From Opitutia bacterium Tous-C4FEB (GTDB taxonomy: Bacteria > Verrucomicrobiota > Verrucomicrobiia > Opitutales > Opitutaceae), in contig NEVA01000001.1 in NCBI GenBank assembly GCA_002304445.1, positions 62,001-126,000 on the forward strand: a DNA stretch of 64,000 nucleotides, read 5' to 3'. The position numbers were made by a program, and so were the translations under genes. This document shows positions 25,871 through 26,710 of this stretch, piece after piece. The notes beneath the pieces were generated by a model, which saw only the letters and a list, made by a program, of their open reading frames with translations, was not told the origin of the DNA and did not search any database. Position 1 is the first letter of the stretch, and every line of letters starts with the position of its first letter.

Positions 25871-26002
25871 GCGCCGTAAAACAGGCCGGTCTTTATGACA
25901 CGTACCACCCAAAAAATTCTCGACGCTGTCTGAACGATCAGCAGTTTGACCGATGCATCAGGAAAGAAGCCGCCCTTAAAAGCGGTTTCAGCCAACCGGG
26001 CC

Positions 26003-26118
26003 GGGAGCGGCCACGGTGGATCGGGCGAAAGCCCGGATGTGCGTCACCCGCAAAGGCGACGAACCACAACGCTCCCGAAGACGAAACCGATCTGATGCCC
26101 AGATCGGTTTTTTGTTTT
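26003..26118 (+). ncRNA. Candidate structured RNA: three-way junction plus terminator
   Basis: Manual folding on the plus strand gives a closing stem GGGAGCG (26003-26009) with CGCTCCC (26070-26076). An inner helix pairs GTGG (26016-26019) with CCAC (26063-26066). Hairpin 1 is CGGGC-GAAA-GCCCG (26022-26035). Hairpin 2 is CGTC...GACG (26042-26061) around CC/GG and a CGCAAA loop. An AAG-rich linker and a Rho-independent terminator (26084-26118) follow, 39 bp before the next ATG. The layout resembles a riboswitch with an expression platform, or a small RNA. It does not match c-di-GMP-I, TPP, cobalamin or purine consensus features that I know. No class is assigned. Confidence 0.55.
26084..26118 (+). 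terminator. Rho-independent terminator before a small-gene pair
   Basis: Stem AAACCGATCT (26084-26093) with AGATCGGTTT (26101-26110), loop GATGCCC, and a T run that begins in the stem and continues TTTGTTTT. It sits between the structured RNA and the ATG at 26157. The segment GATCGG at 26019-26024 repeats the 3' stem core and could pair with CCGATC (26087-26092). That would open the terminator and use up hairpin 1. Confidence 0.8.
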
Positions 26119-26156
26119 CATCCTGCGGCACGTTCCTCTCCACGAAAACTCCGCCC

Positions 26157-26411
26157 ATGAACCTCGAAGCAAAAGTCCCCGGCATCCGCGCCTGCGCGGG
26201 CAACCCGAACCATCACCTGTGGAACAACCATGGCACTTGGTTCCTGCACTACACGGCCTATCCCACGCCGTTCACCAAGGAGCGCATCCGCCGGTCCCTC
26301 GGCACCAAAGATGTCTTGGCGGCCCGGTCCCGGCGCGACCGTTGTTTCGAACAACTCACCCGCGAAGCCGCCAAGCTCGCTCCGCCCCCGCACAAACAGG
26401 CCGCCGCATGA
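26157..26411 (+). CDS. Small protein resembling a stand-alone tyrosine-recombinase arm-binding domain
   Basis: 84 residues. The segment NNHGTWFLHYTAYPTPFTKERIRRSLGTKDVLAARSRRD (residues about 23-61) resembles the N-terminal arm-type DNA-binding domain of phage/ICE integrases, where a short beta sheet is followed by RRSLGTKD and a basic helix. No catalytic recombinase domain follows: the frame stops after an Ala/Pro-rich tail. It could be a DNA-binding regulator or excisionase-like protein, or a truncated integrase relic. Against decay, it overlaps the next frame by ATGA and follows a structured leader. Family call by eye only. Confidence 0.5.
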   Translation: MNLEAKVPGIRACAGNPNHHLWNNHGTWFLHYTAYPTPFTKERIRRSLGTKDVLAARSRRDRCFEQLTREAAKLAPPPHKQAAA

Positions 26412-26710
26412 ACCCGCCTGTGCACAGCATCCGCTTCGCCCGGACCGACATTTCGGACGTCCACCCGAGCGGCGACGAGATTATCTCGCGGGTTTACCTG
26501 AACGAGACGGCGGCGCCCGTCGGCCTCGTACTGCGCGTGGCGGGATTTTGGGCCTATCGCTTGGTCGATGGACCGTCGCCCGTCCTCGACGGCCGACTCA
26601 CCCGCCGAGATCTCGAACGCCAGATCACCCTTTTTCACCTTGGCGAGGTCCCATGCGCCCCCGCCGCCGATGACACGACGATGCAGCCAGAGTTCGACGC
26701 TGCCATCTGA
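26408..26710 (+). CDS. Small protein of unknown function, coupled to the arm-domain gene
   Basis: 100 residues that I do not recognise. It is rich in acidic and hydrophobic residues. A likely beta region (IISRVYLNETAAPVGLVLRVAGFWAYRLVDG) precedes a short charged helix (LTRRDLERQITLFHLGEVP). There is no signal peptide or membrane helix. It starts at 26408 inside the stop of the preceding gene (ATGA), which supports a two-gene unit. Codon use looks like that of the neighbours. Function cannot be inferred. Confidence 0.5.
   Translation: MNPPVHSIRFARTDISDVHPSGDEIISRVYLNETAAPVGLVLRVAGFWAYRLVDGPSPVLDGRLTRRDLERQITLFHLGEVPCAPAADDTTMQPEFDAAI

Follow-up and report, generated by a model that had tools for sequence, protein, structure and literature searches.

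The window, a stretch of 64,000 nucleotides of contig NEVA01000001.1 from Opitutia bacterium Tous-C4FEB, carries on its forward strand a structured RNA composed of an aptamer (25954–26076) and a terminator (26077–26119), followed by two short genes. The first of these (26157–26411) encodes an 84-amino acid protein that is a stand-alone relative of the N-terminal (arm-type) domain of recombinases according to profile searches. The second (26408–26710) overlaps the small gene at an ATGA and encodes a 100-amino acid protein that has no Pfam or NCBIfam match and for which related sequence is found in 51 loci, redundant loci included. Upstream of the RNA lie a possible operator, TTATGACA (25893–25900), which belongs to an enriched TATGACA-type element, and a promoter-like sequence with CTCGAC (−35) and CAGTTT (−10) separated by 17 nucleotides (25919–25947). 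A CTGGAC/CTCGAC-like hexamer is located 36 nucleotides before GCATCA in 48 of 107 leaders; a −35-like hexamer at that spacing would place the transcript start near helix P1 of the aptamer, and we infer the promoter position from sequence on this basis. The stretch 25995–26125 folds far better than its shuffles (z −4.8; 0 of 200 as good), and the element begins at 25954, approximately 50 nucleotides upstream of the start given in a preliminary description of the locus. The idea of a multicopy RNA was rejected, as there is a single copy in the genome.

Our sequence comparisons identify the hairpin RNA as the 3′ portion of a riboswitch of the SAM-I/IV type (RF01725). A scan of the window with Rfam at curated cut-offs gave no match at the RNA; with relaxed limits, RF01725 (SAM-I-IV) is the best Rfam match (25950–26077, 34.2 bits, E 0.00099) and also the best match within its clan. 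The RNA had seemed unclassified because this score lies below the RF01725 gathering score of 41.1 bits, which is a homology cut-off and not a structural feature. With an E value of at most 0.001 and stricter filters, RF01725 has a match in 43 of the 200 family genomes searched, a set that does not include the genome of the window, and only 6 of these exceed the gathering score while 37 fall below it. The gathering score is passed in two genomes of the same genus (G197 and G143, 42.3 and 41.2 bits) and at L002, L003, L008, L213, L217, and L230 (15 sources given). A search of the window's genome for RF00162 (SAM-I) at an E value of at most 0.001 returned no match. The preliminary description could not match the RNA to a class known to it and named a known Rfam class as grounds against novelty; the RNA matches SAM-I/IV, though the window scores under the curated cut-off, and the riboswitch class is therefore one already known.

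The window RNA shares with RF01725 the core, an undivided P2, P4, P5, and a pseudoknot that joins the P3 loop to the 3′ tail; undivided P2, P4, P5, and the pseudoknot PK-2 are the features ascribed to SAM-I/IV riboswitches in passages of PMC6890682 and PMC2864571. It differs from RF01725 in a derived J1/2 (AGGAA for AAGAG), in a score under the Rfam cut-off, and in that the gene 3′ of the RNA is small and DUF6538-like. P5, the P3-loop pseudoknot (PK-2), and the common SAM pocket are also found in SAM-IV (RF00634), which, according to the same passages of PMC6890682, has no P4, has a second pseudoknot (PK-1), and has P2 split in two, whereas the window RNA has P4 and an undivided P2. The binding core is likewise common to SAM-I (RF00162; PMC6890682, in part); unlike SAM-I, the window RNA has no kink-turn in P2 and possesses P5 and the 3′ pseudoknot.

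We assessed this architecture on an alignment of 43 leaders (A1), the rows of which were partly chosen by CATCA/CAACC/GGTGG anchors. The 5′ strand of P1 (25954–25959) pairs with its 3′ strand GATGTG (26036–26041, kept in 76 of 77 full-length hits), and 99.6% of P1 cells are paired. P2 (25966–25989) is a hairpin of eight contiguous pairs without an internal loop, 95.3% paired, with two-sided changes in seven of the eight pairs; P3 together with the core strands CCAACC and CGGTGG (25992–26019) is paired in 98.3% of cells. P4 (26022–26035), which has a GAAA loop, is supported by A1, and P5 (CGCAAA loop, 26042–26061) shows two-sided changes in five of six pairs. The P3 loop GGGAGCG (26003–26009) pairs with CGCTCCC (26070–26076) as a pseudoknot, with covariation both in the alignment and independently of it. 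The SAM-I/IV structure plus terminator is paired in 93.1% of A1 cells with two-sided changes in 31 of 57 pairs, a score as high as which none of 500 shuffles gave, and a shift by one to three columns leaves less than 50% paired. Because the A1 rows are partly core-anchored, we also examined 77 full-length hits among the named relatives that were chosen by a covariance model alone (itself built from related leaders); GCATCAGGAA, CCAACC, and CGGTGG are present in all 77. Similarly, given that the pseudoknot is misaligned in the four most distant A1 rows, it was re-tested without an alignment: the P3 loop finds at least five Watson–Crick pairs in its own tail in 111 of 121 leaders, compared with 24% for shuffles and 29% for draws from leaders with another loop. 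The co-varying strand pairs include GGGAGCG/CGCTCCC, AGGAGT/ACTCCT, GGAGA/TCTCC, ATAGG/CCTAT, and GGGAAAA/TTTTCCC.

The preliminary description, which proposed a covariance check on homologues, is thus answered by strong covariation of both the structure on A1 and the pseudoknot, and the stems it named are present. Its 7-bp closing stem is a genuine, covarying pairing, but its role is that of the pseudoknot between P3 loop and 3′ tail; its two hairpins are real, but they are P4 and P5 of the SAM-I/IV fold. The inner GTGG/CCAC helix shows no covariation: just 4 of 41 sequences have a standard outer pair (three G-C, one G-U), the other three pairs are mostly kept and never show a two-sided change, and the GGTG of this helix is part of P3 and the core. 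Vienna nevertheless includes this helix when the ligand-free state is folded, and it might form in that state.

The residues that contact the ligand are conserved. Passages of PMC6890682 list positions 6–8, 11–12, 44–47, 57–59, and 87 as the ligand core of SAM-I; in our own mapping, via the SAM-I sequence in the part of PMC5393176 concerned, these correspond to AUC, GA, CAAC, UGG, and A, which are invariant in the 43 rows of A1. Contact position 59 is G instead of C, the same as in the RF01725 consensus. The J1/2 pattern of the SAM-I/IV class is AnGAG; J1/2 of the window, AGGAA, has G at position 14 and A at position 17, and J1/2 of the 4L81 SAM-I/IV RNA is ACGAG, with C at position 14 (PMC5393176, in part). 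G and A occupy positions 14 and 17 in 83 of 121 leaders; the last J1/2 position, which is outside the listed ligand contacts, is A in 89, G in 29, and C in 3. The regular expression used to collect the leaders fixes several core positions, and the invariance of those positions among the 121 leaders is therefore no evidence of conservation; a wider set of 122 leaders contains one chance match of the expression (L002, forward strand), which was dropped from the counts on 121.

The predicted intrinsic terminator, already recognized in the preliminary description and supported by sequence and the A1 structure, ends approximately 38 nucleotides upstream of the ATG at 26157. Its loop contains CTGATGC (26092–26098), the complement of the 5′ strand of P1 plus J1/2, and pairing counts and Vienna energies point to GCATCAGG (25955–25962) as an anti-terminator strand that pairs with 26091–26098. 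All 77 named relatives have CTGATG within the 60 nucleotides that follow the aptamer. On A1 this anti-P1 helix is 99.1% paired, with position 14 in G-C (39), A-U (3), and U-A (1) pairs; it has four two-sided cells, a number that none of 500 shuffles reached, and one two-sided pair, which 113 of 500 shuffles reached. At least seven contiguous anti-P1 base pairs are found in 112 of 122 leaders, which include related sequences and other classes of the phylum, compared with 9.9% of mononucleotide shuffles; the remaining 10 leaders lack a 7-bp helix. In the helices that are kept, position 14 forms G-C (93), A-U (7), C-G (7), U-A (2), G-U (2), and U-G (1) pairs. Leaders with a residue other than G at this position form 7 bp with their own tail in 17 of 24 cases and with the tails of G leaders in 8.3% of draws; the reverse swap is weaker, with 95 of 98 G leaders pairing with their own tail and 58% of draws doing so with non-G tails. 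C at position 14 with a G partner occurs in L027/L028, L079, and L086/L088 of the window's family and in L233 and L236 of another, and this combination spans several genera and two sampled families. Comparative sequence data thus support an alternative pairing of P1/J1-2 with the terminator loop. In Vienna calculations on transcripts ending at 26098–26103, the anti-terminator is favored over the P1 state by approximately 8 kcal/mol; at 26119 the preference is reversed, and P1 plus terminator is favored over the anti-terminator. The modeled order is that which a kinetic transcription switch would need. For the full-length transcript the minimum free energy is −76.0, compared with −74.9 for P1 plus terminator, in a calculation that ignores pseudoknot and ligand.

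The preliminary description was thus correct about the kind of element, a riboswitch-like leader with a terminator and mutually exclusive pairings, but not about the strands. The pairing it had put forward, GATCGG with CCGATC, is possible in the window; across 43 aligned leaders it shows no two-sided changes, and 21 of them do not keep the second pair. Separately, L009, L011, L013, and L016 have a hairpin, TGATGCGCGA...CGCATCATG, around the start codon of the small gene that repeats the anti-P1 and P1 letters; this hairpin is absent in the window.

The RNA is widespread in the phylum: a covariance model (R1) detects it in 54 of 387 sampled genomes and 33 of 197 genera, and 28 of the 54 RNA-bearing genomes are outside the window's family. 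We retrieved 35 R1 places, 34 from outside the family and one (L240) from the window's genus. The gene metK lies directly 3′ of the RNA in four of them (L230, L231, L238, and L239; confirmed with Pfam for L230 and L238). The small gene lies 3′ of the RNA in 14, of which 13 were assigned by reading (L212 and L215 by eye, with profile confirmation) and L245 by profile search; the remaining places have other genes, in part of unknown family, or a sequence too short to tell. Within the window's family, metK comes after the small gene in 10 loci; R1 finds the RNA in 8 of these but not at L081 or L083. Since related RNAs precede metK directly or via the small gene and the contact residues are conserved, SAM is very likely the ligand. 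The host's own metK lies elsewhere and has no upstream R1 match. The same holds for the 30 top-scoring metK places in 61 genomes of the family; the RNA-linked copies ranked lower and are outside these 30. The case for SAM rests on homology because the switch in this genome controls no recognized SAM gene.

Several observations were made alongside this survey. A second, weaker R1 match (27.9 bits) is located at 2819–2952 of L004, near a metK-linked unit, and stand-alone metK genes in L246 (1430–1450), L247, and L254 are preceded by a common CGTTGAT...CTTGC-like stretch, noted by eye, that is perhaps another control element. A MoxR-like AAA ATPase is encoded directly after the riboswitch in L234 and further down, after the small gene, in L214 (Pfam) and L023 (sequence likeness). 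N-formylglutamate amidohydrolase-like genes follow the RNA in L235 (Pfam) and L244 (sequence likeness) and the small gene in L289 (sequence likeness). Two further protein families occur after SAM-I/IV-type RNAs: one of approximately 150–170 amino acids with ‘VRNWA’ near its start, directly 3′ of the RNA in other families (L221, L223, and L226–L228), and one with an ‘LLRLLIRNIPF’-like start (L232, 262 amino acids; L242, 278 amino acids; L229, start only).

The small gene is present in 115 of 200 genomes of the same family and has a match in 94 of the 387 genomes of the phylum sample, 12 of them weak (E above 1e-6), with 10 of these 12 in frames of 354–530 amino acids. Among the 80 named loci, which are the best 80 of 268 relatives, the RNA lies upstream of the small gene in 79; in the exception, L172, the small gene is at base 118 of its contig, and contig ends truncate L137 and L138. 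The RNA is missing at 11 of 40 small-gene loci mostly picked for divergence, 9 of the 11 in genomes with at least two copies, and 12 of 16 small-gene loci of other families have no convincing RNA match with E values up to 0.0025 accepted. The 84-amino acid protein has a sub-threshold Pfam match to DUF6538 (20.1 versus 27 bits), and DUF6538 is matched at an E value of at most 0.01 in 24 of 27 members of its family. The profile of the small protein reaches the first 50–80 residues of proteins of 373–455 amino acids, and all four such long proteins tested match Phage_integrase, three of them over the cut-off. Hence, the profile finds the N-termini of tyrosine recombinases, whose arm-type domain has a fold composed of a three-stranded sheet plus a helix; unlike the recombinases, the small protein stands alone, at approximately 80 amino acids, and lacks a catalytic domain. 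An AlphaFold model (pLDDT 64, pTM 0.46) with two strands and helices is too weak to use, and the predicted structure has no match in the PDB at an E value of at most 0.001. The profile evidence suggests that the protein is a stand-alone arm-type domain and probably binds DNA. A C-terminal ‘AA’ was considered as a protease tag and rejected, since the GCATGA at which the two genes overlap accounts for it better.

The TATGACA element or a close form, on either strand within 130 nucleotides upstream, accompanies 51 of 107 leaders compared with 5 of 928 random stretches and is mostly positioned at −52 to −71. Its presence goes with the small gene: in the 35 retrieved places it was found in 12 of 14 with the small gene versus 3 of 21 (Fisher test on a hand recount that places L245 in the small-gene group), and two of the three exceptions, L240 and L243, end too early for the gene to be read. 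This distribution suggests that TATGACA may be an operator. TATGACA also precedes the small gene in the RNA-less loci L288 and L291–L293, and it is absent in eight RNA-less loci of another family (L280–L286 and L295). Regulation of metK by the small protein via TATGACA was considered and rejected, the element being near only 2 of 28 scored metK genes (of 31).

Taking together the aptamer architecture, the pseudoknot, the alternative pairing, and the metK linkage, which are established by sequence comparison, we infer both SAM binding and the direction of switching, and we consider it highly probable that the RNA is a riboswitch of the SAM-I/IV type acting as an OFF switch. At low SAM, P1 would be weak and the CTGATGC of the emerging terminator loop would capture the 5′ strand of P1 and J1/2; with this strand captured the terminator could not form, and the small gene would be transcribed. 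With SAM bound, P1 and the pseudoknot would retain the 5′ strand, so that the terminator would form and transcription would stop. In metK-linked relatives, by contrast, a downstream anti-P1 copy lies close to the start codon, where it may affect translation; the metK-linked arrangement is perhaps the older one.

Other readings of the locus were weighed against this one. The SAM-clan fold could now sense S-adenosylhomocysteine or another SAM derivative in the branch that lost metK and has a changed J1/2, a reading favored by the frequent G/A at positions 14/17 and by the placement of the switch away from metK in this genome. We regard this as improbable: the SAM-I contacts given in passages of PMC6890682 fall in conserved columns and do not include position 14, the solved SAM-I/IV RNA (PMC5393176, in part) itself differs from the window at position 14 in having C, and the drift of this position needs no change of ligand because position 14 follows its anti-P1 partner. 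A leader that senses no ligand, being either a small RNA that ends at the terminator or an attenuator under protein control to which the small protein perhaps binds, seems to us quite improbable; the conservation of the small protein beside the RNA and the further regulator suggested by TATGACA would be in keeping with it, but against it stand the retained SAM core and the related RNAs found ahead of metK where the small gene is absent. The new class of the preliminary description, a three-way junction with a GATCGG/CCGATC switch, has stems that exist in the window and that Vienna also predicts for the ligand-free state; it is largely refuted by the match to a known class and by the lack of covariation in its inner helix and named switch, and we give it hardly any credence.

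Starting from the OFF switch, we offer one further, decidedly tentative speculation concerning the small protein, namely that it relays SAM status as a dedicated regulator: a recombinase arm domain standing alone, which would regulate its own gene at TATGACA, be produced only at low SAM, and pass on what the riboswitch senses to a broader group of genes throughout Verrucomicrobiota. On this view the switch would have left metK in the window's branch, and its sole targets would be the regulator gene and the small gene that accompanies it.

In the open-licence literature, supplements aside, we found neither ‘SAM-I-IV’ nor ‘SAM riboswitch’ together with Verrucomicrobi, no association of the RNA with the small gene, and no mention of DUF6538. 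For a riboswitch together with Opitutaceae, there is a genome table counting two riboswitches (PMC2474590, in part). The SAM-I-IV variant was described from ‘several phyla, marine’ in PMC2864571, and its main text names neither Verrucomicrobia nor Opitut. In Verrucomicrobiota, many SAM-I/IV members escape the Rfam cut-off; our results extend the class in this phylum and tie it to a conserved, unstudied small gene. The covarying pair of P1/J1-2 and downstream anti-P1 reveals a putative switching helix from sequence alone. The locus offers a testable entry to SAM control in Verrucomicrobiota, for which we found no described case in the open-licence literature, and if the relay were true, a single RNA sensor would control numerous promoters by way of a protein.
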